From: Ancylobacter vacuolatus
GTDB taxonomy: Bacteria > Pseudomonadota > Alphaproteobacteria > Rhizobiales > Xanthobacteraceae
Length of the DNA: 64,000 nucleotides
NCBI RefSeq assembly: GCF_030813595.1
Contig: NZ_JAUSUH010000003.1
Coordinates: 248,001-312,000, forward strand
Reading direction: 5' to 3'
A model generated the notes under the pieces. It saw only the letters and a program-made list of their open reading frames with translations, made no database searches and was not told where the DNA came from. Both the position numbers and the translations under genes were made by a program. Shown here one piece after another: positions 47,395-64,000 of the stretch; position 1 is the stretch's first letter; each line of letters begins with the position of its first letter.

Positions 47395-47667
47395 ATGCGT
47401 ATCCCCTGCCCCTATTGCGGCGAACGCGACGCCCATGAATTCGCCTATCTCGGCGACGCCACCCTGACGCGCCCCGACCCGGCGGCGGCGGAGGCGGAAC
47501 AGGCGTTCCACGATTATGTCTATCTGCGCGACAACCCGGCCGGGGCGCATGAGGAGTGGTGGTACCACGCCAATGGCTGCCGGCAGTGGCTGCGCGTCGC
47601 GCGCGACACCCGCACCCATGCCATCTCAGGCGCCGTTGCCGCGCGTGTTGCGGGAGAGCCGGCATGA
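47395..47667 (+). CDS. mgdB: N-methylglutamate dehydrogenase subunit B (sarcosine oxidase delta-like)
   Basis: Small zinc subunit of 90 residues. The likely ligands are Cys5, Cys8, His58 and Cys62 (CPYC and YHANGC), the pattern of SoxD. Its stop overlaps the mgdC start (ATGA, 47664-47667). Confidence 0.9.
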   Translation: MRIPCPYCGERDAHEFAYLGDATLTRPDPAAAEAEQAFHDYVYLRDNPAGAHEEWWYHANGCRQWLRVARDTRTHAISGAVAARVAGEPA

Positions 47668-50636: not shown

Positions 50637-51252
50637 CCATTCGTCTCACGATCCCCTCGCGGGCATCCCGTTCGACCGTGTGCCCCCTTCCGGTGCCTAT
50701 GGCGCGGGCGGGGCGGCGGGCGTCACCGTCGCCACCACGGACACGCCGTTCATCGCGCTGGTCGTCGCCCGCAACGGCTTTGCCGCCAGTGTGGCGGGCC
50801 GGCTCGGCCGCGCCTTCGGGGTGGAAGTGGCCGACCAGGCCCGCGCGGCGATCGGCGCCGCCTCCACCGTGGTCGGCACCGGGCCGGGGCGCTTCCTCGT
50901 GCTGTCGAAGACCGAGCCGGACCTTGCCGGCACGCTGCGCGCGCTGCTGGGGGTTGAGGCGGCGATCACCGAACAGGACGACGCCTATGTCACCTTCGAC
51001 CTCGCGGGCGACAAGGTGCCCGATCTCATCGCCAAGGGCGCGCTGATCGACCTCGATCCGCGCGTGTTTCTGCCCGGCCACGCCGCCACCACCGTGATCG
51101 CCCATATCGGCGTGACCCTGTGGCGGGTGCATGAGAGCGGCTGGCGCCTGCTCGTGGCGCGCAGCCTGGAGGCGAGCTTCACGCGTTTCCTCGTCGCCAG
51201 CGGCGCCGAGTTTGGCCTGCGTCTGGAGAACGGGACAGCGGGACGAGGTTGA
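50629..51252 (+). CDS. mgdD: N-methylglutamate dehydrogenase subunit D (sarcosine oxidase gamma-like)
   Basis: Subunit of 207 residues related to SoxG and to the GcvT fold (GFAASVAGRLGRAFGVEV, VFLPGHAATTVIAHIGVTLWR). The GTG at 50629 is in an eight-base overlap with mgdC. It completes the four-subunit enzyme. Confidence 0.88.
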   Translation: MADHSSHDPLAGIPFDRVPPSGAYGAGGAAGVTVATTDTPFIALVVARNGFAASVAGRLGRAFGVEVADQARAAIGAASTVVGTGPGRFLVLSKTEPDLAGTLRALLGVEAAITEQDDAYVTFDLAGDKVPDLIAKGALIDLDPRVFLPGHAATTVIAHIGVTLWRVHESGWRLLVARSLEASFTRFLVASGAEFGLRLENGTAGRG

Positions 51253-51345
51253 CGGCGGCGCGCCGCGCGCTTTCCCCGTCACCCCTTCTCCCCTAGAACG
51301 GCCCGGCGCCTTTGCGGCGCACCGGCGTTTCGACGAGACAGACTC

Positions 51346-52215
51346 ATGACCGACAGCACCGAACCCTGCATCCTCACCCTCTCCTGCCCCGACCGGCCGG
51401 GCATCGTCGCCGCCGTCGCGACCTTCCTGTTCGAGCATGGCGGCAACATTCTGGAGGCGCAGCAATTCGACGCCACCGAGAGCGGCCGCTTCTTCATGCG
51501 GGTGATGTTCGACCGCGCCGCCGGCTCCGGCCCGCTGGAGGCGCTGAAGGCGGATTTCGAGGCCGTCGCGGAAAAGTTCGCGCTCGACTGGCGCCTGCGC
51601 CCGCGCAGCCAGAAGCGGCGGGTGATGTTGCTGGTGTCGAAATTCGACCATTGCCTCGCCGATCTGCTCTATCGCTGGCGGATCGGCGAGATTCCGATGG
51701 AGATCGTCGCCATCGCCGCCAATTACCCGCGCGAGACCTACGCCCATCTCGACCTTGCCGGCCTGCCCTTCCACTATCTGCCGATCACCAAGGCGACCAA
51801 GATGGAACAGGAGGCCCAGCTGTGGGAGCTGTTCCAGTCGAGCGGCGCCGAAGTGGCGGTGCTGGCGCGCTACATGCAGGTGCTCTCGGACGGGCTGTCG
51901 GCCAAGCTCTCGGGGCGCTGCATCAACATCCACCATTCCTTCCTGCCCGGCTTCAAGGGCGCCAAGCCCTATCACCAGGCGCATGAGCGCGGGGTGAAGC
52001 TGATCGGCGCCACCGCGCATTACGTCACCTCCGACCTCGACGAGGGCCCGATCATCGAGCAGGATGTCGAGCGCATCAGCCATCAGGACACCGCCGAGGA
52101 CCTGGTGCGCAAGGGCCGCGACATCGAGCGCCGGGTGCTCGCCCGGGCGCTGGCCTGGCACCTCGACGACCGGGTGCTGTTGAACGGCCACCGCACCGTG
52201 GTATTCCGCGACTGA
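51346..52215 (+). CDS. purU: formyltetrahydrofolate deformylase
   Basis: Enzyme of 289 residues releasing formate from 10-formyl-THF. An N-terminal ACT domain (about 5-85, [16 protein letters not shown]) precedes the formyltransferase domain with the catalytic Asn/His/Asp set in [12 protein letters not shown] and [13 protein letters not shown]. In line after mgdD, it recycles THF and makes formate for oxidation elsewhere; it is not needed for purine synthesis here. Confidence 0.93.
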
Positions 52216-52227
52216 GAACGGCGCGTG

Positions 52228-52325
52228 CGTCGAGACGCGGGGCGCTGCCCCGCTGCTCAGCATGACGAAGGCGCGCAGCGCGCCGTCGCCTCAGAATGAC
52301 GGCTTGCCGGGCCTCGAAGGACGCA
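52228..52325. repeat. dispersed repeat between purU and folD
   Basis: GCTCAGCATGACGAAGGCGC, the hairpin GGCGCGCAGCGCGCC and GGGCCTCGAAGGACG are variants of the CTCAGGATGACG family. Another repeat within the C1 operon. Confidence 0.7.
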
Positions 52326-52362
52326 GGACAAAGCCGTAAAGCGATCCGCGCTGGAGGAAAAC

Positions 52363-53232
52363 ATGGTCGAAACCCGCCTGATCGACGGCAAGGCGTTTGC
52401 CGAGACGATGCGCGCCCGCCTCAAGGATGACGTGGCCGCCTTTGTCGCCGAGACCGGCGTGACGCCGGGCCTCGCCGTGGTGCTGGTGGGCGAGGATCCC
52501 GCCAGCGCGGTCTATGTCCGCAACAAGGGCAAGCAGACGCTGGAGGCCGGTATGGCCTCGATCGAGCACAAACTGCCGGCCGACACCGCGCAGGATGACG
52601 TGCTGGCGCTGGTGCGGGCGCTGAACGCCGACGACGCCGTGCACGGCATTCTCGTGCAGCTGCCTTTGCCCGCGCATATCGACGCGCAGGCGGTGCTCGC
52701 CACCATCGACCCGGCCAAGGATGTCGACGGCTTCCATGTGGTGAATGCCGGCCGGCTCGCCGTGGGGCTGGAGGCGCTGGTGCCCTGCACCCCGCTCGGC
52801 TGCGTGATGCTGCTCAAAGACACGCTCGGCTCGCTAGCCGGGCTGGAGGCGGTGGTGGTCGGGCGCTCCAACATCGTCGGCAAGCCGCTCGCCCAGCTGC
52901 TGCTGCGCGAGGACTGCACCGTCACCATCGCCCATTCGCGCACCCGCGACCTGCCGGGCGTGTGCCGGCGCGCCGACATTCTCATCGGCGCGGTGGGCCG
53001 GCCGGAGATGATCCGCGGCGACTGGATCAAGCCGGGCGCCACGGTGATCGATGTCGGCATCAACCGGGTGGCGGGCGCGGACGGCAAGGGCCGGCTGGTC
53101 GGCGATGTGGCGTTCGCCGAGGCGAAGGGCATTGCCGGGGCGATCACCCCGGTGCCCGGCGGCGTCGGCCCGATGACCATCGCCTGCCTGCTGGCCAACA
53201 CGCTCACCGCCGCGCGGCGGCAGGTGGGGTGA
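52363..53232 (+). CDS. folD: methylene-THF dehydrogenase/cyclohydrolase
   Basis: Bifunctional enzyme of 289 residues oxidising 5,10-methylene-THF to 10-formyl-THF with NADP. The active site is VYVRNKGKQ with Tyr and Lys; dinucleotide motifs are [17 protein letters not shown] and [22 protein letters not shown] lies before the ATG at 52363. With mgdABCD and purU it makes a complete route from the methyl group to formate. Confidence 0.94.
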
Positions 53233-53259
53233 TGCGGGCCCCCGCGCCGGCGGCCGCGT

Positions 53260-54795
53260 TCAGACCGCCTGCGGGAAGCTGAACAGGTTGCCGGGGTCGA
53301 TTTGCGCCTTGATTTCGGCCAGCCGGACGGAATTGGCGCCGTAATAGCGGGCGCGCCAATCGACGAGCGAGGTGTCGGGGAAGTTGATGAAGGCGCCGTG
53401 CCCGCCGGCATGGCCGACCGTGTGATATAGCTCGTCCTGCCATTTCTTGGCGGCGCGCACGATCTCCGGGCGCACGGTGTCGTCCTCGCTCCAGCTCACC
53501 CCGGCCACGGCCAGCCACCGGCTGCCGCGATGGACGAAGGCGCTCGCCGCCGGCGCGATCTCATTGATCCGCCCGCCGGTCTGGAAGAAGAACAGGTCGC
53601 CATGCGCGCCCGTGCCGGGCCAGCGCACCAGATGGTGGAAGGCCTTCTCCAGGAACGCCTCGGAGGGCGCGGTGTCGAGAAAGGCGGAGCGCTCGCGGTA
53701 CCAGGCCGGTGCGCCGGGCTCCATCAGGAATTCCTGCGCCTCCCAATAGGGCAGTTCGCGGATGTCGGTCCTTTCAGGCGCGGCGACGGCCATGACCGGC
53801 TGCAGCAGCTTTTCAAAGGCCTGCCGGTCGCCGGCGAACTGGCCGAGCAGCGTCACTCCCACCTGCCGCCCGCCCGCGTGGAGGGTGGGCGTCACCCCCG
53901 CGAGACTGATGCGCGTGCCGAGCGTGACCGGCGCGCCATCGAGCGTGGCGAACAGGGCCCGGGCCACCGCCAGCGTCTTCTGCCGCCAGACGATGCGGAA
54001 GGCGGTCAATTGGCTGTCGGCCGGCACGGTCTCGAAGGTGAAGGAAGTGCTCACCCCGAAATTGCCACCGCCTCCGCCCCGGGTCGCCCAGAACAGGTCC
54101 GGCTCCTCGGTGGCGGAGAGGGTGCGCACCCGGCCGTCGGCAGTGACGATCTCGGAGGCGACGAGCATGTCGGAGGCGACGCCGAGCCGGCGCATGTTGA
54201 AGCCGATGCCGCCGCCGAGCACGAAGCCGGCGACGCCGACCGTGGGGCAGCGGCCATGGGTCATCATCCGCCCGGCCTGGCGCAGCGCATCATAGATCGG
54301 CTGGTTGATCGCGCCGGCGCCGACCTTGGCCCGCCCGGTGGCGGGGTCATAGGTGATGGCGTTCATCGCCGACATGTCGATCAGCAGGCCATGGGTGGTG
54401 GAGAAGCCGGCATAGGAGTGCCCGCCGCCGCGCACGGCGAAGGGCACTTCATAGTCCTGGCACCAGCTCAGCACATGGCCGATCATCTCAGGCGTGCGGC
54501 AGCGCACGATGGCTTCCGGCCGGACATGGCGGAAGCGCAGATTGTTCGGCAGCGCCTCGGAAAGGAAGCCGGCATCGGAGGGGCGCAGCACCGCGCCATC
54601 GGTGAGGCGGGCCAGCGCCTGCCAGCGATCGACCGGCGGGCTCGGCGGCGGGACTGGGGCAGGCTGGGTTGATGCCGGGGTAGATGCCTGGGTAGATGCC
54701 TCCTGCGCCCGCAACGGCGCGAAGCCGGCCAGCGCGGCGCTGGCCGCCGTGCCCATGATCAGGCTCCGGCGGCTTAGGCGTGCCGTCGACGTCAT
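53260..54795 (-). CDS. Tat-exported BBE-type FAD-linked oxidase
   Basis: Oxidase of 511 residues of the berberine-bridge/gluco-oligosaccharide oxidase family. A Tat signal (RLSRRSLIMGTAASAALAG) and a Ser/Thr/Pro linker (35-55) precede the FAD domain. His in GGGHSYAG and Cys in GRCPTVGVAG are the pair that bind FAD covalently in this family. The C-terminal BBE motif is YYGANSVRLAEIKAQIDPGN. GGAGGGG precedes the ATG at 54795. The substrate is unknown; an exported carbohydrate oxidase is plausible. Confidence 0.88.
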   Translation of the reverse strand: MTSTARLSRRSLIMGTAASAALAGFAPLRAQEASTQASTPASTQPAPVPPPSPPVDRWQALARLTDGAVLRPSDAGFLSEALPNNLRFRHVRPEAIVRCRTPEMIGHVLSWCQDYEVPFAVRGGGHSYAGFSTTHGLLIDMSAMNAITYDPATGRAKVGAGAINQPIYDALRQAGRMMTHGRCPTVGVAGFVLGGGIGFNMRRLGVASDMLVASEIVTADGRVRTLSATEEPDLFWATRGGGGGNFGVSTSFTFETVPADSQLTAFRIVWRQKTLAVARALFATLDGAPVTLGTRISLAGVTPTLHAGGRQVGVTLLGQFAGDRQAFEKLLQPVMAVAAPERTDIRELPYWEAQEFLMEPGAPAWYRERSAFLDTAPSEAFLEKAFHHLVRWPGTGAHGDLFFFQTGGRINEIAPAASAFVHRGSRWLAVAGVSWSEDDTVRPEIVRAAKKWQDELYHTVGHAGGHGAFINFPDTSLVDWRARYYGANSVRLAEIKAQIDPGNLFSFPQAV

Positions 54796-54992
54796 TCGGG
54801 TCCCCTCCCCTCGTTCCCGCACCCCGCGCCCCCCACAGGCCCGCGCCCGGGGAGCGGCGATGGCGCCCGCTTTTGCAATGCCTCCCATATCGGCGCGCGG
54901 TTGTGAAGCACCGTCGATCGCAATCGCTAAAATTGTAGTATACAATCCTGGATTGCGGATATCGGGCGCGCCTCCGAGCCGGGCGGCCGGCC

Positions 54993-56387
54993 TCACACCC
55001 GGGTCATGCGGTTCCAGGCATCGAGGCCGGCGATCTTGTAGGCTTCGGCGAGGGTGGGATAATTGAACGTGTTCTCGATGAAATAGTCGATCGTGCCCTT
55101 GAGGTTCAGCACCGCCTGGCCGATGTGGATCAGCTCGGTCGCGCCCTCGCCGACGATGTGCACGCCCAGCAGCCGGCGGGTCTTCACCGAGAAGATCATC
55201 TTCATCATCCCGCTGTTCAGCCCCATGATGTGGCCGCGCGAGGTCTCGCGGAAGCGGGCGATGCCGCATTCATAGGGAATCTCGCGCTTGCGCACCTCTT
55301 CCTCGCTCATGCCCACCGTGGACATCTCCGGCACGGAATAGATGCCATAGGGGAAGAATTCCGGCGGGGGCGGCGGCTCCAGCCCGAAGGCGTGGCAGGC
55401 GGCGACGCGGCCCTGCTCCATCGAGGTGGAGGCAAGGCTGGGAAAGCCGATGACGTCGCCCGCTGCATAAATGTGCGGCACGGCGGTCTGCAGCGTCTTC
55501 GGCTCGACGCCGATGCGGCCGCGATGATCGACGGCGAGGCCGGCGGCTTCCAGGTTCAGCCGGTCGGTGGCGCCGACGCGGCCGGCGGCGAAGAGCAGCA
55601 TGTCGGCATGCACGGTACGCCCGTCCGCCAGCTTGCACACCGGCCGCTCGCGCGCGTCCAGCGTGATCGAGGTGACGGCGGCGCCGAAGCGCAGCGCGAC
55701 ATTGCGATCACGCAGCTCATGGACGAATTCCTCGATCAGCTCCTTGTCGATGAAGTCGAGAAAGGTGGAGCGCGGCTCGATCAGCGTGACCGACACATCA
55801 AGCGCGCTGAAGATCGAGGCATATTCGACGCCGATGACGCCGGCGCCGATGACCGCGAGGCTGCGCGGCAGCCGGGGCAGGTCGACGATTTCGTCGCTGT
55901 CGAACACGCTCATGCCGTTGAAGGGCACATAATCGGGCCGGAACGGGCGGGTGCCCACCGCGATCAGCACATGGGCGGCCGTGACCTTGTCGACCTCGCC
56001 GCCCTCGGCGGTGATCTCGATGGTGTGCGCATCGAGAAAGCGGGCCTCGCCGCGCGCGGTCTTCACCGCATTGCGGGCGAACTGGTGTTCAAGCACCTCG
56101 ACTTCGTGGTCGAGCGTCTTGTGCAGCCGCGCCATCAGGTCGGCGGCGCCGATATCCTGCTTGACCCGGTAGGAGCGGCCATAAAAGCCGCGCTCGCGCC
56201 AGCCGGAGAGGTTGAGCACCGTCTCGCGCAGGGTTTTCGAGGGGATGGTGCCGGTGTGGACCGAGACGCCGCCGACGCGGCGGCCCTTCTCCACCACCAG
56301 CACCGACTTGCCGATCTTGGCGGACTGGACGGCGGCACGGCGGCCGGAGGGGCCGCTGCCGATGACAATCATGTCGAAATCGTACAT
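54993..56387 (-). CDS. sthA: soluble pyridine nucleotide transhydrogenase
   Basis: FAD enzyme of 464 residues (E. coli SthA has 466) that equalises NADPH and NADH. The FAD motif is IVIGSGPSGRRAAVQSA; in the VGGVSVHTGTIPSKTLRE segment no redox Cys pair is present, which separates it from lipoamide dehydrogenase. The NAD motif is AVIGAGVIGVEYAS. It could turn NADPH from FolD into NADH; that link is inferred from its place between folD and mgsA. It is divergent from the XRE-cupin gene. Confidence 0.9.
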   Translation of the reverse strand: MYDFDMIVIGSGPSGRRAAVQSAKIGKSVLVVEKGRRVGGVSVHTGTIPSKTLRETVLNLSGWRERGFYGRSYRVKQDIGAADLMARLHKTLDHEVEVLEHQFARNAVKTARGEARFLDAHTIEITAEGGEVDKVTAAHVLIAVGTRPFRPDYVPFNGMSVFDSDEIVDLPRLPRSLAVIGAGVIGVEYASIFSALDVSVTLIEPRSTFLDFIDKELIEEFVHELRDRNVALRFGAAVTSITLDARERPVCKLADGRTVHADMLLFAAGRVGATDRLNLEAAGLAVDHRGRIGVEPKTLQTAVPHIYAAGDVIGFPSLASTSMEQGRVAACHAFGLEPPPPPEFFPYGIYSVPEMSTVGMSEEEVRKREIPYECGIARFRETSRGHIMGLNSGMMKMIFSVKTRRLLGVHIVGEGATELIHIGQAVLNLKGTIDYFIENTFNYPTLAEAYKIAGLDAWNRMTRV

Positions 56388-56568
56388 GGAAGCGCGGGAC
56401 CATTCTGCTGGCGGCAGGACATTACCGCCTATCGATGCACGATGAATGCCAAGCCTCCATGACGGAGGCACAGGCGTGCAGGGTCGATCCTGCCGGCGCG
56501 GGCTGGCTCGGGGCTTGCTTTCGCCGGCGGAACGGGTCCCATCGCCGGGGCGAGCGGAGGGAACGGAC

Positions 56569-57237
56569 GTGGTGAATGGCGGGCGGCGCAAGCCGGGCGG
56601 GGCGGCGGAGGAGCCGGCCGAGGACCTGACCACCGGCTCGGGCGCGCCACTGGTGCGCGAGCGCACGCTGGAACAGGCGCTGGGCCAGCATGTGCGGGCG
56701 ATACGGCACGATCTCGACCTCACCGTCTCCGATCTCGCCAGCGCCGCCGGAATATCGGTGGGCATGCTCTCGAAGATCGAGAACGGGCTGATCTCGCCCT
56801 CCCTCGGCACGCTGCAGGCGATTGCCGGCGTGCTCAACGTGCCGATCTCCACCCTGTTCACCACCTTCGAGGAAAAGCGCGACTGCTCCTATGTCCCCGC
56901 TGGCGGCGGGGTGCGGATCGAGCGGCGCGGCACCAAGGTCGGGCACCTTTATGAGCTGCTCGGCCATGCGGTCGGCGGCGAGGTGGCGGTCGAGCCCTAT
57001 CTGATCACGCTGAGCGAGGAAGCCGTGCCCTATACCGGCTTCCGCCATGCCGGGGTGGAGTTCATCCACATGCTCTCCGGCGAGGTGAACTACCGCCATG
57101 GCGAGCGCACCTATCACCTCAAGCCCGGCGATTCGCTGCTGTTCGACAGCGCCGCCACCCATGGGCCGGAGGAACTGCTGGTGCGGCCGATGCGCTATCT
57201 CTCGATCATCATCTATCCCCGCGAGAGCGACCGCTGA
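56569..57237 (+). CDS. XRE-cupin regulator upstream of mgsABC
   Basis: Regulator of about 222 residues. The HTH (about 40-95) reads LDLTVSDLASAAGISVGMLS and the C-terminal cupin (about 120-215) has HAGVEFIHMLSGEVNYR and LKPGDSLLFDSAATHG. A GTG at 56569 lies eight bases after GGAGG; the next codon is also GTG. Upstream in-frame starts have no ribosome site. It precedes mgsA by 141 bases and probably controls the methylamine genes; the cupin may sense a small amine or amino acid. Confidence 0.85.
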   Translation: MVNGGRRKPGGAAEEPAEDLTTGSGAPLVRERTLEQALGQHVRAIRHDLDLTVSDLASAAGISVGMLSKIENGLISPSLGTLQAIAGVLNVPISTLFTTFEEKRDCSYVPAGGGVRIERRGTKVGHLYELLGHAVGGEVAVEPYLITLSEEAVPYTGFRHAGVEFIHMLSGEVNYRHGERTYHLKPGDSLLFDSAATHGPEELLVRPMRYLSIIIYPRESDR

Positions 57238-57259
57238 GCGTCTCCCGGTAAAAGCGCCT

Positions 57260-57276
57260 TTTTCTTCTCAAGAAAA
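57260..57276. promoter_or_regulatory. 17-base palindrome upstream of mgsA
   Basis: TTTTCTTCTCAAGAAAA has perfect seven-base arms around CTC, 49 bases upstream of the sigma-54-like promoter. It could be the XRE-cupin operator, an activator site, or the end hairpin of the XRE gene. Confidence 0.55.
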
Positions 57277-57324
57277 TATTATTCCCGGATTATTGACGCC
57301 CGCGCGGGGCGCTCCTAAAAGATT

Positions 57325-57339
57325 GGGCAAGGCCTTTGC
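57325..57339 (+). promoter_or_regulatory. probable sigma-54 promoter of mgsABC
   Basis: GGGCAAGGCCTTTGC matches TGGCACGNNNNTTGC at all but two fixed positions, with GG and GC exactly ten bases apart. It ends 39 bases before the mgsA ATG. Nitrogen-type (RpoN) control fits an ammonium-releasing amine pathway. Confidence 0.62.
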
Positions 57340-57378
57340 GCCGTCTGTCCCCTCTTTTGCCTGCAGGAGTATTCCGCC

Positions 57379-58260
57379 ATGTGCGGCATTGTCGGCCTGT
57401 TCCTGAAGCAGCCGAAGCTGGAGCCGGAACTCGGCGCCCTGCTTTCGCAGATGCTCGACATCATGTGCGATCGCGGGCCGGATTCGGCCGGCTTCGCCGT
57501 CTATGGTGCCGGCACCCCCGGCTTCGTGAAGCTCACCCTTCGCGGCCCGGCCGGCACCGATTTCGCCGCGCTGGGGGACAAGATCGGCCATCCCGTCATC
57601 GCCCGCGACACCCATGGCGTGATGAGCGTGCCGGTGGCCGAGGAAACCACGGTCCGCGCCGCGCTCGCCCGCCTCGCCCCTGAGGTGCGCGTGGTCGGCG
57701 CCGGCACCCGCATGGAGCTCTACAAGGAGGTCGGCCTGCCGGCCGATGTCGCCAAGCGCTTCGAGCTGGAGACGATGAGCGGCACCCACGCCATCGGCCA
57801 CACCCGCATGGCGACCGAGAGCGCCGTGACCACGGCGGGCGCCCACCCCTTCTCCACCGGGCCGGACCAGTGCCTGGTGCATAATGGCTCGCTGTCCAAC
57901 CATGCCGGCGTGCGCCGCCTGCTCGCCCGCGAGGGGCTGGAGGTGACGACCGAGAACGACAGCGAGGTGGCCGCCGCCTACCTCACCTACCGCATGCGCG
58001 GCGGCGACAGCCTGGGCGAGGCGCTGGAGCATTCGCTGGGCGACCTCGACGGCTTCTACACCTTCGTCGTCGGCACCGAGAGCGGCTTCGGCGTGCTGCG
58101 CGACCCCATCGCCTGCAAGCCGGCCGTCATGGCCGAAACCTACGATTACGTCGCCTTCGCCTCCGAATACCGCGCGCTCGCCGGCCTGCCGGGCATCGAG
58201 ACGGCGCGGGTGTTCGAGCCGGAGCCGGCCAAGGTTTATTTCTGGGATCGTGCCGCATGA
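57379..58260 (+). CDS. mgsA: N-methylglutamate synthase subunit A (GlxB-like amidotransferase)
   Basis: Class II amidotransferase subunit of 293 residues. Cys2 (MCGIVGLF) is the nucleophile after Met removal; RGPDSAGFAVYG and HTRMATESAVTTAGAHPF are the other glutaminase motifs. In N-methylglutamate synthase it acts on gamma-glutamylmethylamide to release methylamine. AGGAG precedes the ATG. The stop overlaps the mgsB start (ATGA). Confidence 0.88.
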   Translation: MCGIVGLFLKQPKLEPELGALLSQMLDIMCDRGPDSAGFAVYGAGTPGFVKLTLRGPAGTDFAALGDKIGHPVIARDTHGVMSVPVAEETTVRAALARLAPEVRVVGAGTRMELYKEVGLPADVAKRFELETMSGTHAIGHTRMATESAVTTAGAHPFSTGPDQCLVHNGSLSNHAGVRRLLAREGLEVTTENDSEVAAAYLTYRMRGGDSLGEALEHSLGDLDGFYTFVVGTESGFGVLRDPIACKPAVMAETYDYVAFASEYRALAGLPGIETARVFEPEPAKVYFWDRAA

Positions 58261-58982
58261 ACCTCTCGCTGAAGCCTGAAGCTGCCGAGGGTGAAACCCT
58301 CGTCGACCTCGCCACCACCCCGCTGCGCGCGCTGAACGGCGCGCTGCACAAGCTGGCGGCCGACACCAACCAGACGCTGTGGACGGTCGCCAACCCGGCC
58401 GGTCGCCACGCCATCGCCGCCGGGCTGGACGCGCCGATCACCGTCGAGATCGACGGGCCGGTCGGCTATTACTGCGCCGGCATGAACAAGCAGGCGCGCG
58501 TCATCGTCCATGGCAATGCCGGCGTCGGCGTCGCCGAGAACATGATGAGCGGCTTTGTCCATGTGAAGGGCGACGCCAGCCAGGCCGCCGGCGCCACCGC
58601 CCATGGCGGGCTGCTCATCATCGACGGCAACGCCTCGGCCCGCTGCGGCATCTCGATGAAGGGCATCGACATCGTGGTGAAGGGCTCGATCGGCCATATG
58701 AGCGCCTTCATGGCGCAGGCCGGCACCCTCACCGTGCTGGGCGATGCCGGCGAGGCGCTGGGCGACAGCCTGTATGAGGCGAGGCTGTTCGTGCGCGGCT
58801 CGGTCGCCAGCCTAGGGGCCGACTGCATCGAGAAGGAGATGCGCGAAGAGCACAAAGCGCTGCTCGCGTCCAAGCTGGAAGCGGCCGGCCTGCTCGGCGA
58901 GGTCGATATCTCCGAGTTCCGCCGTTACGGCTCGGCCCGCACGCTCTATCATTTCCACGTCGACAACGTGTCGAGCTATTGA
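58257..58982 (+). CDS. mgsB: N-methylglutamate synthase subunit B (GlxC-like, GltB C-terminal domain)
   Basis: Subunit of 241 residues corresponding to the beta-helix domain of glutamate synthase. Gly-rich repeats such as VIVHGNAGVGVAENMMSG and KGDASQAAGATAHGG are evident. A structural subunit between the amidotransferase and FMN parts. It overlaps mgsA by four bases. Confidence 0.88.
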   Translation: MNLSLKPEAAEGETLVDLATTPLRALNGALHKLAADTNQTLWTVANPAGRHAIAAGLDAPITVEIDGPVGYYCAGMNKQARVIVHGNAGVGVAENMMSGFVHVKGDASQAAGATAHGGLLIIDGNASARCGISMKGIDIVVKGSIGHMSAFMAQAGTLTVLGDAGEALGDSLYEARLFVRGSVASLGADCIEKEMREEHKALLASKLEAAGLLGEVDISEFRRYGSARTLYHFHVDNVSSY

Positions 58983-58989
58983 GGGCGCG

Positions 58990-60327
58990 ATGACCGACCA
59001 CAGCAATACTCCGCGCACGACGCCCCGCGCGTCCGCCACCTTCGACGATTACACGCTCTCGGAAATCCGCCGCGCGGCGGCCACCGGCATCTATGACATT
59101 CGCGGCGGCGGGGCGAAGCGGAAGGTGCCGCATTTCGACGACCTGCTGTTCCTCGGCGCCTCGATGTCGCGCTACCCGCTGGAAGGCTACCGCGAGAAGT
59201 GCTCGACCGAGGTCGTGCTCGGCACCCGCTTCGCCAAGAAGCCGATCCAGCTGAAGATTCCGATCACCATTGCCGGCATGAGCTTCGGCTCGCTTTCGGC
59301 CAACGCCAAGGAAGCGCTGGGGCGCGGCGCCTCCGCCATGGGCACCTCCACCACCACGGGCGATGGCGGCATGACCAATGAGGAGCGCGGGCACTCGACC
59401 CAGCTCGTCTACCAGTATCTGCCCTCCCGCTATGGCATGAACCCGGACGACCTGAAGCGCGCCGATGCCATCGAGGTGGTGGTCGGCCAGGGCGCCAAGC
59501 CCGGCGGCGGCGGCATGCTGCTCGGCCAGAAGATCACCGAGCGCGTCGCCGGCATGCGGACGCTCCCCGTCGGTATCGACCAGCGCTCCGCCTGCCGGCA
59601 CCCGGACTGGACCGGGCCGGACGACCTCGAGATCAAGATCGAGGAACTGCGCGAGATCACCGATTGGGAAAAGCCGATCTATGTGAAGGTCGGCGCCGCC
59701 CGTCCCTATTACGACACGGCGCTGGCCGTGAAGTCCGGCGCCGATGTGGTTGTCGTCGACGGCATGCAGGGCGGCACCGCCGCGACGCAGGAGATCTTCA
59801 TCGAGCATGTCGGCATCCCGACGCTCGCCGCCGTGCGGCAGGCGGTGAAGGCGCTGCAGGACCTCGGCATGCACCGCAAAGTGCAGCTGATCGTCTCCGG
59901 CGGCATTCGCAACGGGGCGGACGTCGCCAAGGCGCTGGCGCTCGGCGCCGATGCGGTGGCGATCGGCACCGCCGCGCTGGTGGCGCTGGGTGACAACGAC
60001 CCGCATTATGCCGCCGAATATGAAGCGCTCGGCACCCGCGCCGGCGCCTATGACGACTGGCACGAGGGCCGCGACCCCGCCGGCATCACCACGCAGGACC
60101 CCGAGCTGATGAAGCGGCTCGACCCGATCGCCGCCGGGCGCCGGCTCGCCAATTATCTCGCCGTGCTGACGCTGGAGTGCCAGACCATCGCGCGGGCCTG
60201 CGGCAAGAGCCATGTGCACAATCTGGAGCCGGAGGACCTTGTCGCCCTGACCATCGAGGCCGCCGCCATGGCCAATGTGCCCCTCGCCGGCACCGACTGG
60301 ATTCCGGGGCGGAACGGCGGGTTCTGA
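58990..60327 (+). CDS. mgsC: N-methylglutamate synthase subunit C (GlxD-like, FMN glutamate synthase domain)
   Basis: FMN barrel subunit of 445 residues corresponding to the central domain of glutamate synthase. GMSFGSLSANAKEALGRGA, GQGAKPGGGGML, VDGMQGGTAATQE and VSGGIRNGADVAKALALGAD are the FMN and substrate motifs. At the position of the usual CPVGVATQ-type iron-sulfur segment it has GRDPAGITTQ, so the GltB three-Cys cluster motif is absent. It joins methylamine with the glutamate skeleton to make N-methylglutamate. Confidence 0.88.
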   Translation: MTDHSNTPRTTPRASATFDDYTLSEIRRAAATGIYDIRGGGAKRKVPHFDDLLFLGASMSRYPLEGYREKCSTEVVLGTRFAKKPIQLKIPITIAGMSFGSLSANAKEALGRGASAMGTSTTTGDGGMTNEERGHSTQLVYQYLPSRYGMNPDDLKRADAIEVVVGQGAKPGGGGMLLGQKITERVAGMRTLPVGIDQRSACRHPDWTGPDDLEIKIEELREITDWEKPIYVKVGAARPYYDTALAVKSGADVVVVDGMQGGTAATQEIFIEHVGIPTLAAVRQAVKALQDLGMHRKVQLIVSGGIRNGADVAKALALGADAVAIGTAALVALGDNDPHYAAEYEALGTRAGAYDDWHEGRDPAGITTQDPELMKRLDPIAAGRRLANYLAVLTLECQTIARACGKSHVHNLEPEDLVALTIEAAAMANVPLAGTDWIPGRNGGF

Positions 60328-60354
60328 GCGGCGGCGCACCGGGAAGGAGGCCCA

Positions 60355-60470
60355 CGGTTTCAGCATCCTTCGAGGCCCGGCCGCTGGCCGGGCACCTCAG
60401 GATGACGTGGGCCTTCCAAGCGACGTCATCCTGAGGTGCCGCCGCAGGCGGCCTCGAAGGATGCCCCAGC
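60355..60470. repeat. back-to-back dispersed repeats between mgsC and gmaS
   Basis: CATCCTTCGAGGCCCGGCCG through CACCTCAGGATGACG, then in the other orientation CGTCATCCTGAGGTGCCGCC through GCCTCGAAGGATG. Two full copies of the commonest repeat family in opposite directions, able to form a long hairpin. Confidence 0.82.
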
Positions 60471-60564
60471 AGAAGGGCCGACCGGCGCCGCCGGAATCAC
60501 GGCCTCGGAAATGCATCACCAACGAGCCCCAACGGGCCGGGGAACAGCGAAACCGGATTGCACC

Positions 60565-61869
60565 ATGGCCAATGATCTCGCTCACGCCGCCAAAGAACTC
60601 GGCATCAAATATTTCCTGATCTCCTATGTCGACCTGTTCGGCGCGCTGCGGGCCAAGCTGGCCCCGGCCTCCGCCATCTCAGGCATGCAGCGCTCCGGCG
60701 CGGGCTTCGCCGGCTTCGCCACCTGGCTCGACATGAGCCCGGCCGATGCCGACCTGTTCGCCGTGCCTGATGCCTCCAGCCTGATCCAGCTGCCGTGGAA
60801 GCCGGAAGTCGGCTGGCTCGCCTCCGACCTGGTGATGAACAACGAATTGGTGGCGCAGGCGCCGCGCAATGTGCTCAAGGCCACCATGCAGGGCGCCGGG
60901 AGCCTCGGCTACCAGATGAAGACCGGGGTGGAATGCGAGTTCTTCCTCACCAATGCCGACGGCACCAAGATCTCGGATACCGCCGACAACGCCACCAAGC
61001 CCTGCTACGACCAGTCCGCCCTGATGCGCCGCTATGAGGTCATCAAGGAAATCTGCGACTGCATGCTGACCCTCGGCTGGGGCCCGTACCAGAACGACCA
61101 TGAGGACGCCAACGGCCAGTTCGAGATGAACTGGGATTTCGCCGACGCGCTTGTTACCGCCGACCGGCACGTGTTCTTCAAGTTCATGGCCCGTTCCATC
61201 GCCGAAAAGCACGGGCTGCGCGCCACCTTCATGCCCAAGCCCTTCATCGACCTCACCGGCTCGGGCTGCCACATGCACACCTCGCTGTGGGGGCCGGACG
61301 GCGCCAATCTGTTCGAGGACGAGGAGGGCGAGCTGGGGCTTTCCGCGCTCGGCTACAATTTCATCGGCGGGCTGATCCATTCGGCCGACGCGCTGTGCGC
61401 CTTCACCAACCCGACGGTGAATTCCTACAAGCGCATCAACGCCCCGCGCACCGTCTCCGGCGCCACCTGGGCGCCGAACACCGTCACCTATACCGGCAAT
61501 AACCGCACCCACATGATCCGCATCCCCGATGCGGGCCGGCTGGAGCTGCGCCTGCCGGACGGCGCCGCCAACCCCTATCTCGCCCCCGCCGCCATGCTGG
61601 CCGCCGGGCTCGACGGCATCCAGAACCAGCGCGACCCAGGCAAGCGGCTCGACATCAACATGTACACGGATGGCCACAAGGTGAAGGGCGCCAAAAAGCT
61701 GCCGCTGAACCTGCTCGACGCCATCCGCGCGCTGGAGAAGTCCAACGTGCTGCGCAGCGCGCTCGGCGCGCCGCTGGTGGAGGGCTACACCAAGCTGAAG
61801 CACGAGGAATGGAACGCCTATTCCCGCCACCTGACCCAGTGGGAGCGCGACAACACGCTGGATATCTGA
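60565..61869 (+). CDS. gmaS: gamma-glutamylmethylamide synthetase (GlnT/type III GS-like)
   Basis: Glutamine synthetase-fold enzyme of 434 residues ligating methylamine to glutamate with ATP. Core motifs are TGVECEFFL, NDHEDANGQFEMNWDFAD, LTGSGCHMHTSLW, THMIRIPDAGRLELRLPDGA and NPYLAPAAMLAAG. The ATG at 60565 gives the usual length (MANDLAHAAKELGIKYFL). As first enzyme of the N-methylglutamate pathway it belongs with mgsABC directly upstream; a GlnT-type glutamine synthetase is the alternative. Confidence 0.88.
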   Translation: MANDLAHAAKELGIKYFLISYVDLFGALRAKLAPASAISGMQRSGAGFAGFATWLDMSPADADLFAVPDASSLIQLPWKPEVGWLASDLVMNNELVAQAPRNVLKATMQGAGSLGYQMKTGVECEFFLTNADGTKISDTADNATKPCYDQSALMRRYEVIKEICDCMLTLGWGPYQNDHEDANGQFEMNWDFADALVTADRHVFFKFMARSIAEKHGLRATFMPKPFIDLTGSGCHMHTSLWGPDGANLFEDEEGELGLSALGYNFIGGLIHSADALCAFTNPTVNSYKRINAPRTVSGATWAPNTVTYTGNNRTHMIRIPDAGRLELRLPDGAANPYLAPAAMLAAGLDGIQNQRDPGKRLDINMYTDGHKVKGAKKLPLNLLDAIRALEKSNVLRSALGAPLVEGYTKLKHEEWNAYSRHLTQWERDNTLDI

Positions 61870-61879
61870 AGTCGGCTGC

Positions 61880-62065
61880 GTGCTTCGAGGCCGCCCGGCG
61901 GGCGGCACCTCAGCATGACGAAGGTCCTTCCATCTTCCTCGATACACCGTCATGCCCGGCCTTGTGCCGGGCATCCACGTCTTTGGACGTCGCGCAAGCA
62001 GTGGATGGCCGGGCCAAACCCGGCGATAAACGCTCACCGCACCGCGCAGCCCTCTCATGCCCTTG
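61880..62065. repeat. dispersed repeats downstream of gmaS
   Basis: GTGCTTCGAGGCCGCCCGGC to CACCTCAGCATGACGAAG, then CGTCATGCCCGGCCTTGTGC and GGCATCCACGTCTTTGGACG. The second element recurs at 63420-63495, nearly identical over about 35 bases. Confidence 0.78.
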
Positions 62066-62102
62066 CCGGGAACGGCACCACAACGCGCCGTTCGGTATCC
62101 GC

Positions 62103-62133
62103 TTGACGCGGCGTCCGGGCGATAGAATATAGA
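62103..62133 (+). promoter_or_regulatory. possible promoter of small peptide gene 1
   Basis: TTGACG (62103) and TATAGA (62128) are 19 bases apart. TTGACG followed 36-37 bases later by TACC is conserved before all three peptide genes. Confidence 0.45.
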
Positions 62134-62163
62134 ATCGAGTACCCTTGGCGCGGAACGAGCTCG

Positions 62164-62325
62164 ATGACCCTTCCTCCGAATCAGCAATCCGCCCTCGTCC
62201 GGGGCCCGGACCTGCGCGACACGAACAAGCCCGCATGGCGCGCGCCGGTCTGCCGGCCGGTGCCGCTGCCGGCGTCGACGCTTCTTGATTCGAACTTCAG
62301 CACTGATGGTTTTATTGGTTCCTGA
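62164..62325 (+). CDS. small peptide gene 1, RiPP-precursor-like (53 residues)
   Basis: First of three paralogous genes, each of 53 codons plus stop. The product has a polar N-terminal half and the motif KPAWRAPVCRPVPLPAST, then a C-terminal 14 residues (LLDSNFSTDGFIGS). The W-x-x-P and a Thr eleven residues after the Pro resemble the leader of lasso-peptide precursors. If the core starts two residues after Thr39, the conserved Asp48 is core position 8, the ring-closing place. No maturation gene is in the window. Function is unproven; the coding claim rests on conservation of length and protein pattern among the copies. Confidence 0.68.
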   Translation: MTLPPNQQSALVRGPDLRDTNKPAWRAPVCRPVPLPASTLLDSNFSTDGFIGS

Positions 62326-62416
62326 TCCCTCACGGGCCGAGCCGCAGCACACAGCGGTGCCGTACCTGCGCCAGTGACGGCCGAGAATGGCCGCTCCTGG
62401 CCGCGCTGTGTACCGG

Positions 62417-62452
62417 CTTGACGCGCGTCAAGGTTGATTGACTGCCAATCAA
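62417..62452 (+). promoter_or_regulatory. palindromes in the upstream region of small peptide gene 2
   Basis: CTTGACGCGCGTCAAG (62417-62432) is a perfect 16-base palindrome containing the TTGACG box. TTGATTG-ACTGC-CAATCAA (62434-62452) follows at once. Both are well placed for regulator binding over the promoter. Confidence 0.55.
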
Positions 62453-62478
62453 GTTACCTCGGGCGAGGAGGAAGCTTG

Positions 62479-62640
62479 ATGACCCTTTATCCGAACCAAC
62501 GTCCTACCCTCGTTCCAGACCGGAATAGGCGCGACGCACAGAAGCCCGCGTGGCGCAAACCGGTCTGCCGGCTGGTGCCGCTGCCGGCGTCGACGCAGTT
62601 CGATTTGGACTCCAACGGCGATAGTATGCTCCAGTCCTAA
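62479..62640 (+). CDS. small peptide gene 2, RiPP-precursor-like (53 residues)
   Basis: Second paralogue, with the strongest start signal of the three (GAGGAGGAAG before the ATG). The motif is KPAWRKPVCRLVPLPAST and the tail QFDLDSNGDSMLQS. It shares with copies 1 and 3 the residues MT, P5, RD18-19, KPAWR22-26, PV28-29, R31, V33, LP35-36, T39, D48 and final S53. An in-frame longer reading from 62434 runs through the palindromic promoter and is unlikely. Confidence 0.72.
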   Translation: MTLYPNQRPTLVPDRNRRDAQKPAWRKPVCRLVPLPASTQFDLDSNGDSMLQS

Positions 62641-63021
62641 TTCACTACAGGACGACCCGCGCGGCCGAGCCGCTCCGGCGCAAGCGGCGTTTCACGCGGC
62701 CGGTCGCCCCTTCCCCGTTTCGCCACCTACCCGGTGGGAGCGCGACAACAGGCGGGATAGCTGAGGCGGGTCTGCCCCCTCGCCGGCGTCATCGCGGAAC
62801 GGTCGCGAGGCCGTATCCGGGATCGCATCCAGCTCTATCCTGCACGCGATCCCGGCGCTGCGGCTTCGCCTCCGGCCGGGATGACGACGCAAACAGGACC
62901 TCTCCCCGCCGGCGCGTTCACTCCCGCACTGCGAACGGCTACAGGCGACCGTTCGGTAGCGGGTTGACGGGCCGGTCGCCGACGGCGACAAGAGTGGGAT
63001 ACCTTCCTTACGGACGAACAC
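62641..63021. other. gap with duplicated gene ends and repeats, upstream of peptide gene 3
   Basis: Besides the gmaS-end fragment (62720-62775), about 62785-62890 has a CGTCATC...GGGATGACGACG repeat. About 62925-62955 (CACTCCCGCACTGCGAACGG) resembles the 3' end of the ScfR-type gene at 63530. TTGACG at 62964 is the promoter-like box of gene 3. Confidence 0.65.
62720..62775 (+). pseudogene. duplicated fragment of the gmaS 3' end
   Basis: CGCCACCT-ACCC-GTGGGAGC and GCGACAACA-GGATA-CTGA match the last 45-50 bases of gmaS (61827-61875) at roughly 85 percent by eye, with a one-base deletion that breaks the frame. It marks an old segmental duplication carrying a small peptide gene. Confidence 0.8.
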
Positions 63022-63183
63022 ATGACGACATCCCCGACGCCGCCCGCCGCCGCTCGCGTCGACCGGAACAAGCGCGACATGCCGAAGCCCGCCTGGCGCA
63101 CGCCCGTCCTTCGGCAGGTGCAGCTGCCACTGGCGACGCTGGAGAACCCGAACAACAGCGGTGATGCGGCTGAGCTTTCCTGA
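63022..63183 (+). CDS. small peptide gene 3, RiPP-precursor-like (53 residues)
   Basis: Third paralogue, again exactly 53 residues. The motif is KPAWRTPVLRQVQLPLAT and the tail LENPNNSGDAAELS. Cys30 of copies 1 and 2 is Leu here. The N-terminal third is the most diverged (SPTPPAAARVDRNKRD), while the leader motif and Asp48 stay, which argues for selection on the protein. The ribosome site is weak (ACGGACG). Confidence 0.66.
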   Translation: MTTSPTPPAAARVDRNKRDMPKPAWRTPVLRQVQLPLATLENPNNSGDAAELS

Positions 63184-63525
63184 CCGGATAGGACAGGCGG
63201 CGCCGATCACCGGATATCGGCCCAGTGAATCGTCGCTGCGCGCTCCCTTCAGCTCGACCGGCGGGGCGGCTGTGCCGCGCTGACGCGAAGAGCGGACCGC
63301 CCCTGCGTGCGCCATTCCGCGCTCCAGGTGTCGCGTCCCGGTTGTGCGCCATCCCTTTTGGGAGCGCGACGAAGGGTGGGAGTGCTTGGGGAGGGACGCC
63401 TCTCCCCCAAAGCGACGCCATGCCCGGCCTTGTGTCGGCCATCCACGTCTTTGGATCTCACCGAAATCGTGGAGGACCGGGCCAGGCCCGGCCATGACGT
63501 GGCCGGCGCTTCAATCGTGTCTCCC
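63184..63525. other. gap after peptide gene 3
   Basis: No gene is recognised. TTTTGGGAGCGCGACGAAGG near 63356 is a faint echo of the gmaS end (GTGGGAGCGCGACAACA). ATGCCCGGCCTTGTGTCGGC near 63420 with CATCCACGTCTTTGGATCTC repeats the element found after gmaS at 61950. Confidence 0.6.
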
Positions 63526-64000
63526 TCACTCCCGCACCGCGAACGGCACCACGTCGCGGCGGTCGGGATCGAGCACGATTTCGCGGTCGAGCGGGGGGAA
63601 GGCGCGTTCCGGGCAGGCGGTGCGCGGGCAGATGCGGCAATTGACGCCGAGCGGCGCCACGGCGGCCGATTTCAGGTCCAGCCCATCGGCGTGGACGAGT
63701 TCTCCGGCATAGGAAATCTCGCAGCCAATGCCGAGCGCGAAGCGGCGCTCGCGCGCGCCATGGCGCAGCGCCGGCTTTGACGTGCCGCGCGCCAGGCAGA
63801 GATAGCGCACCCCGTCCGGCATCTCGCCCAGTTGCACCAGCGTGCGAGCCGGCTGCTCGAACGCCTCGTGCACATTCCACACCGGGCAGGCGCCGCCATA
63901 GCGGGCGAACTGGAAGCGGGTGGCGCTGTGGCGCTTGATGACGTTTCCGGCGCGGTCGACTTTCAGGAAATAGAACGGCACGCCCTTCTCCCCCGGCCGC
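63526..64000 (-). CDS. ScfR-type (XRE/ImmA-DUF2083) regulator, partial (N-terminus beyond window)
   Basis: The C-terminal 157 residues or so of a short-chain fatty acyl-responsive regulator of the RamB/PrpR/ScfR family; the frame stays open to the right edge. Family hallmarks are the Cys-rich NCRICPRTACPERAFPP, FARYGGACPVWNVHEAF and RTLVQLGEMPDG. Relatives control acetate, propionate or glyoxylate metabolism. The HTH domain lies outside the window. Its 3' end has been copied next to the small peptide genes. Confidence 0.85.
   Translation of the reverse strand, partial: RPGEKGVPFYFLKVDRAGNVIKRHSATRFQFARYGGACPVWNVHEAFEQPARTLVQLGEMPDGVRYLCLARGTSKPALRHGARERRFALGIGCEISYAGELVHADGLDLKSAAVAPLGVNCRICPRTACPERAFPPLDREIVLDPDRRDVVPFAVRE

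Follow-up and report, generated by a model that had tools for sequence, protein, structure and literature searches.

Tandem 53-residue peptides of Ancylobacter vacuolatus as probable unclustered precursors of a kinase-type lasso-peptide system

Results and Discussion

We describe three tandem genes in a 64,000-nucleotide stretch of Ancylobacter vacuolatus DNA (the window: positions 248001-312000 of contig C3 of genome G000, 5.02 Mb) which, with a probability that we put at roughly 0.7, encode unclustered precursors of a kinase-type (paeninodin-like) lasso-peptide system. In the proposed pathway, the leader would be bound via KPAWRxP by a type II B1 protein (RRE) whose gene is on another contig, and Ser53 at the C-terminus would be phosphorylated by an HPr-kinase-like enzyme. 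Cleavage by a B2 leader peptidase would fall behind residue 40, two residues from Thr39, and an asparagine-synthetase-like cyclase (C) would link the newly exposed N-terminus, residue 41, to Asp48, for a ring of 8 residues and a tail of 5. Excerpts of the paeninodin literature describe a B1 that binds the leader and hands it to B2 (PMC5067487) and a kinase that phosphorylates the C-terminal serine of the precursor, apparently ahead of B2 and C (PMC9266682). No precursor of the window array adjoins enzyme genes, which counts against our reading. The precursors and their distant enzymes suggest a shared, dispersed assembly line, in which unclustered precursors would be matured partly in trans.

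Precursor array and relatives

The three open reading frames comprise 53 codons each and align without gaps, with 19 invariant columns including KPAWR, P28, V29, L35-P36, T39, D48 and S53 (Table 1). Open reading frame calls and the ungapped alignment thus confirm the three tandem 53-residue paralogs with 19 identical positions that a preliminary description of this DNA had claimed. The genes are not chance frames, because full-length, in-frame relatives exist, four in Ancylobacter rudongensis (G017) and one in a genome of another genus (G124). The antisense frame is likewise open across the three copies, but its starts and lengths differ. A TTGA[C/T] block aligns upstream of all seven array copies of G000 and G017; a promoter and terminator scan of the array returned no site, the TTGACG blocks being without a full sigma-70 match. 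Pfam and NCBIfam searches assigned the three peptides to no family, and an Rfam search of window positions 56000-64000 gave two matches far under gathering scores, neither at the peptides.

Table 1. Features of the precursor array and its borders in window coordinates.
Feature	Position	Strand	Remarks
Precursor gene 1	62164..62325	+	Leader residues 1-40; predicted core LDSNFSTDGFIGS (residues 41-53)
Precursor gene 2	62479..62640	+	Predicted core FDLDSNGDSMLQS; 89% identity to G017 copy 1
Precursor gene 3	63022..63183	+	Predicted core ENPNNSGDAAELS
Gene 1 W25-R-A-P28 codons, presumed RRE-binding motif	62236..62247	+	Residues 25-28 same in genes 2 and 3
Gene 1 Thr39 codon, -2 to predicted core	62278..62280	+	Thr at W+14 in 19/19 type II-like precursors
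Gene 1 Asp48 codon, predicted ring-closing residue (core 8)	62305..62307	+	Acid at W+23 in 18/19
Gene 1 Ser53 codon, predicted kinase target	62320..62322	+	C-terminal Ser in 30/30 intact precursors
TTGACG block, promoter-like (-35) candidate	62103..62108	+	61 nt 5' of gene 1 ATG
TTGACG-type block	62418..62423	+	61 nt 5' of gene 2
TTGACG-type block	62964..62969	+	58 nt 5' of gene 3
Glutamine-synthetase-like gene just 5' of array	60436..61869	+	Context, outside proposed pathway
XRE-type regulator (named by eye), right array border, cut by window end	63526..64000	-	Context

The glutamine-synthetase-like gene upstream of the array is presumably of the gmaS type. It ends a run of genes at window positions 47556-61869 that reaches up to the array; these are sarcosine-oxidase-, purU-, folD-, glutamate-synthase- and gmaS-like, and we take them to be a methylamine pathway of the N-methylglutamate type. 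The spacing between the gmaS-like and XRE-type genes is about 1.66 kb in the window versus about 165 bases in the close relative G019. Similar stretches, atgcccggccttgtg..catccacgtctttgga, flank the array at window positions 61945-62035 and 63420-63500 and look by eye like an intergenic repeat.

A peptide search combined with inspection of 1.5-kb gmaS flanks in all 30 genus genomes found the array at the gmaS site in two of them, G000 and A. rudongensis, which carries four copies at the same gmaS-side site (NZ_FMTP01000002); gmaS itself was found in all 30. The sole further clear copy among 391 family genomes is that of G124, also just after gmaS, with a predicted core, GQFTQNTDGTFGS, that has Gly1 and Asp8. 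Across 397 order-level genomes, a model of the peptides matched their own genome alone at E 1e-4, and a contig scan gave matches in A. rudongensis plus a 14-residue match in Mycolicibacterium. A weak peptide match in G028 is, by its coordinates, a cluster-borne precursor. Both G000 and G017 also carry a shorter, isolated relative away from gmaS, near a gene that we take to be rpsD-like. Between G017 copies 2 and 3 lies a gene of 204 residues with a P-loop-like start (L187 3555-4169). It matches no Pfam family, and window positions 61801-64000 contain no convincing trace of it.

The isolated G000/G017 pair differs by 8 synonymous and 4 non-synonymous changes (dN/dS 0.13). Pooled pN/pS of six array copies (15 pairs, G017 copy 4 excluded) was 0.75 for residues 1-21, 0.54 for K22-x40 and 1.11 for the core, figures that are rough for genes this small; a slowly changing K22-x40 and a fast core are as would be expected of a leader and its core. 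Counting against the precursor reading, dN/dS relative to the nearest G017 copies was 0.93 for gene 1 and 1.17 for gene 3. Homologs with the same protein pattern, whose absence would have spoken against the preliminary description, do occur, with intact frames, in G017 and G124.

Shared precursor grammar

The lasso-like register of the array recurs in precursors that lie next to lasso enzymes. WxxP is present in all seven array copies, which were found without it as a search key, and in all 30 intact precursors, for the cluster-borne ones of which it was the search key. The type II-like set numbers 19 precursors, of which 9 come from clusters and 10 are dispersed; Thr stands at W+14 in every one and an acid at W+23, core position 8, in all except the precursor of the C17 cluster. 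The seven array copies without exception keep 53 residues, WxxP, Thr at W+14, the acid at W+23 and the final Ser. In type I precursors the acid is at W+22 (9/9), with Ala nine residues earlier in the place of Thr (9/9), and two precursors of a third kind have Thr nine residues ahead of the acid. The final Ser is found in all 30 intact precursors, and in 22 of 22 when the eight chosen using that residue as a filter are set aside. Residue shuffling of 18 cores produced a column with 17 acids in none of 20,000 rounds, a control that ignores relatedness among cores that include several close pairs. Three of the four best non-training matches of the peptide model in the 30 genomes (E up to 0.00101) are cluster-borne lasso precursors, and the model carried no information on cluster positions. 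These shared positions in enzyme-adjacent precursors support the preliminary suggestion of RiPP precursors in a lasso register (W-x-x-P, Thr at -2, Asp8). The fourth match (G002:C8:34687, E 0.001), with no lasso gene recognized nearby, was taken as chance.

Cluster-borne precursors were selected as small open reading frames with [WYF]xxP near C. Directly 5' of C, one of one to four candidates was picked by eye; elsewhere in the clusters a final Ser and a Thr or Ser after the Pro were also required, and eight of the final set entered in this way. An unfiltered rescan of eight gaps added one type II precursor (L130 8667-8771) and the type I precursor of G019, together with L134 10611-10847, a decayed copy in which WxxP and Thr persist but the acid and the final Ser are missing. 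Other open reading frames in these gaps were antisense or had poor coding scores. A second FxxP near its end caused the L131 precursor to drop out of the rescan.

The first core residue is unusual. None of the three window cores begins with a residue customary at this position (Gly, Ala, Ser, Cys); they start with Leu, Phe and Glu, and the first residues of the 19 type II-like cores together comprise L, F, E, I, V, Q, G, A and S. The objection raised in the preliminary description, that core residue 1 would not be Gly, is weakened, not removed, because citrulassin N is reported to have a Leu1-Asp8 ring (PMC12971885) and Asn is the first core residue described for metanodin, in a paper that gives the usual choices as Gly, Cys, Ser and Ala (PMC12670498). 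Phe, Glu, Ile, Val and Gln are without precedent at this position in the literature excerpts. Position -2 also deviates in nature, Ile being documented there in an extract of PMC10368454. The array cores represent a natural test of how far the rule for core residue 1 stretches.

Enzyme clusters

The statement in the preliminary description that the window holds no lasso enzyme held up, since a tblastn search with 15 reference enzymes at E 1e-3 gave zero matches. Precursor, B and C genes are not side by side here; the B1-C clusters and kinase genes of G000 sit on other contigs. RRE, cyclase and leader-peptidase genes are nevertheless present in all three genomes with gmaS-side peptides (G000, G017, G124); a lack of RRE or cyclase genes in them would have told against the reading given in that description. 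The RRE family PF05402 matched in all 30 genus genomes, where one copy is presumably PqqD, and 16 of them have more than one PqqD-family match, including all 13 genomes with B2. An extra RRE is not always paired with B2, the exceptions being G020, G024 and G027 (in the last, the domain is in a 721-residue frame). G020, which has no PF13471 match, carries an RRE and HPr-like kinase pair (L217 7866-9383) with no recognized B2 or C.

By reading the surroundings of the enzymes, three kinds of cyclase cluster were told apart. Type I clusters (content determined by Pfam for the G017 set and by BLAST or by eye for the others) comprise B1, an HPr-like kinase, a sulfotransferase and C, with tail-collar-like proteins alongside, and occur in G000, G002, G005, G013, G017, G019, G028 and G008; in the type I cluster of G014, no C was recognized and the sulfotransferase is in two pieces. 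Type II clusters contain B1 and a C that is 54-55% identical to the C of G000 contig C17, with a kinase present save in G000 C2. They were found in G000 (C2 and C17), G017, G028 and G124, the last 92-97% identical to C17 at the protein level. The third kind occurs in G017 and G028 (L131, L135). The presence of a type II cluster in G028 without any dispersed array counts against our preferred explanation. A plasmid search with the C17 cluster returned 936 records with pieces of it, none covering 80%; among the matches listed, most were transposase pieces.

The NCBIfam lasso cyclase model NF033535 was the best match of both C proteins scanned (E 6e-69 and 3e-93), and the lasso PqqD model NF033536 that of both B1 proteins scanned (E 1e-14 and 1e-19), with scores that fall under the curated cut-offs of these models and to that extent count against the assignment. 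Of 15 C proteins, 14 contain SGG/SAG-x-DS and one reads TGGLDS. All 15 cluster kinases have the His, GxxGxGKS and DD residues that an excerpt of PMC10368454 lists for lasso kinases, and nine have the stricter [GS]DD. Two or three tail-collar-like proteins stand in a row beside the type I C in L128, L132, L133, L140, L143 and L145 (Pfam on one), and DUF6916-like proteins recur near sulfotransferase-bearing lasso clusters of other genera.

A stand-alone leader peptidase

The lasso B2 family PF13471 was detected in 13 of the 30 genus genomes and 51 of the 391 family genomes, including all three with gmaS-side peptides. In a sub-clade of eight genomes (G000, G002, G005, G013, G014, G017, G019 and G028), a complete C occurs in 13 clusters, 7 of type I, 4 of type II and 2 of the third kind; 12 of these have no visible B2, and in the one on C17 the B2 appears to be split. 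Each of the eight genomes has one stand-alone B2, flanked by a GntR gene and an ABC-2 permease; the 20-kb stretch around it contains no recognized B1 or C. In G000 it lies on the same contig as the array, about 113 kb off. Because the cyclase clusters of the sub-clade are without an intact B2 and one stand-alone B2 lies elsewhere, this gene content suggests that B2 probably acts in trans. The stand-alone gene is the only PF13471 match in six of the eight genomes, G000 and G013 having an additional B2 in an RRE-B2-kinase-nucleotidyltransferase cluster without a recognized C. G000 thus has two more B2 genes, a split one and one belonging to a C-less cluster, and action in trans is therefore not forced there. 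In G017, three cyclases (L130, L131, L132) and 11 precursors, 6 of them cluster-borne and 5 dispersed, share the genome with a single B2.

The stand-alone B2 of G000 scores 95 bits against the NCBIfam lasso B2 model NF033537 (cut-off 33), and CLEQG and AH(L/A)W align in nine of nine B2 proteins, the eight stand-alone ones and that of G008. Purifying selection is indicated by a median dN/dS of 0.30 (range 0.17-0.61, 28 pairs) among the stand-alone genes. As the eight sub-clade genomes are the eight closest to G000 by gmaS (G000 included), the stand-alone B2 is best counted as one inherited state and not as eight independent events. G008 is a counter-case, with a type I cluster that has its own, sole B2, 56% identical to the stand-alone one. 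The title of a paper on pseudomycoidin states that it forms without leader and leader peptidase, and a cluster might therefore do without B2.

Outside the sub-clade, 40 B2 stretches were compared, with counts that are rough because recognition was by BLAST against few references (in several, B2 was detected by Pfam and missed by the BLAST references): 21 have B1 and a clear C, 3 are C-less RRE-B2-kinase stretches and 4 lie at a contig end. The remaining 12, from other genera, have no recognized B1, 8 of them with a weak asparagine-synthetase-like neighbor and 4 with nothing, and argue against the stand-alone B2 being unique. B2-family matches without recognized B1 or C in other genera include L149 9699-10229 (G079), L162, L167 and L172. 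A B2 that looks split by the same frameshift occurs in two genera (G000:C17, L079 4286-4713; G124:C150, L147 9330-9680); either the cluster was transferred recently, its B2 being broken by then, or the frameshift is programmed. G124 has a second, intact B2 on another contig.

We hold only tentatively, at a little under even odds, the fuller picture in which one exporter-side B2 would serve several B2-less B1-kinase-cyclase clusters and scattered orphan precursors, with a cyclase that takes almost any core residue 1 and products that are 13-residue phosphorylated rings.

Alternative explanations

The peptides could be processed by RRE, B2 and kinase without cyclization, or closed to a ring without threading, giving linear or simple-ring phosphopeptides, a reading that we consider unlikely. 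Thirteen core residues, five of them in the tail, make a very short peptide for a threaded lasso, and such short cores would suit an unthreaded product. G000 C7 and its relatives, RRE-B2-kinase-nucleotidyltransferase clusters with no C recognized, also fit this reading, as do the linear polyphosphorylated peptides (LPP) of Bacillota, whose precursors combine Y/WxxP, RRE and kinase with no cyclase, often in genomes with paeninodin-type clusters (PMC13381572, in excerpt). A linear product would not need the acid at core position 8, yet this is the most constant core residue (18/19), and cluster-borne precursors of the same register adjoin C genes.

We judge it quite improbable that the array is a relict, made of duplicates from a decaying lasso system that has lost processing. 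Signs of decay are there: a gmaS-site array in just two of 30 genus genomes, the core pN/pS of 1.11, the B2 of the C17 cluster apparently frameshift-split in G000 and G124, a solitary RRE in G013, a cyclase fragment beside the RRE of G005 and a decayed precursor in G028. Set against them are the length and four residue features kept by all seven copies, purifying selection on the isolated pair and the conserved upstream TTGA[C/T] block. A regulatory or PQQ-related role for these small peptides, in connection with the adjoining C1/methylamine genes and outside lasso biosynthesis, is a highly improbable explanation. The gmaS-side position in two genera and the PqqD-family match in every genus genome would agree with it, and PQQ precursor leaders also carry an RRE motif (PMC13381572, in excerpt). 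All 30 genus genomes have gmaS, whereas two have the peptides, one relative lies away from gmaS, and the register agrees with that of cluster-borne lasso-type precursors. The PqqA motif, Glu-x-x-x-Tyr, is absent from the array sequences.

Comparison with known systems

The lasso-type system favored here is known in kind; its arrangement is new and its first core residues are unusual. Excerpts on paeninodin-type systems, the proteobacterial A-B1-B2-C-K-D organization and SyanA/SyanK of Sphingobium describe the same split B1/B2, HPr-like kinase with His/GKS/DD, [Y/W]xxP leader, Thr(-2), core-8 acid and C-terminal Ser as phosphate acceptor (PMC9266682, PMC5067487, PMC10368454). Unlike in those systems, the precursors here are far from the enzymes, B2 is stand-alone, core residue 1 is very variable, type I clusters include a sulfotransferase, and the genes recognized in the clusters include no D transporter. 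Citrulassins resemble our case in their Leu1-Asp8 ring, predicted here, and in having a modifying enzyme, PAD, whose gene lies away from the cluster (PMC12971885, in part). The unclustered enzyme of citrulassins is, however, a tailoring one; in our case the leader peptidase would take this place, and the precursors lie outside clusters as well. Leader proteases encoded elsewhere in the genome are described for lanthipeptides, a different RiPP class (extract of PMC8960859). The LPP of Bacillota share RRE, kinase and the Y/WxxP leader with our peptides, but the excerpt of PMC13381572 has them use an SpI-like peptidase for leader removal and no cyclase. In excerpts of the open-licence PMC literature there is no report of a stand-alone lasso B2 common to several clusters or of dispersed lasso precursor arrays.

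Lasso mining usually seeks precursor, B and C genes side by side. With precursors, peptidase and cyclases scattered, cluster-based mining could therefore call such clusters incomplete and miss the arrays. The dispersed layout may also prove useful as a natural test of whether one B2 works with several different RREs. Clusters of RRE, B2, kinase and nucleotidyltransferase with no cyclase recognized were found in L078 (8611-12269), L089, L088 and L178-L180, and could possibly yield linear phosphopeptides using B2. L078 and L089 contain short Pro-rich precursor candidates (KKPYVPPM..), and L088 contains three RKxYxxPxFVK candidates.
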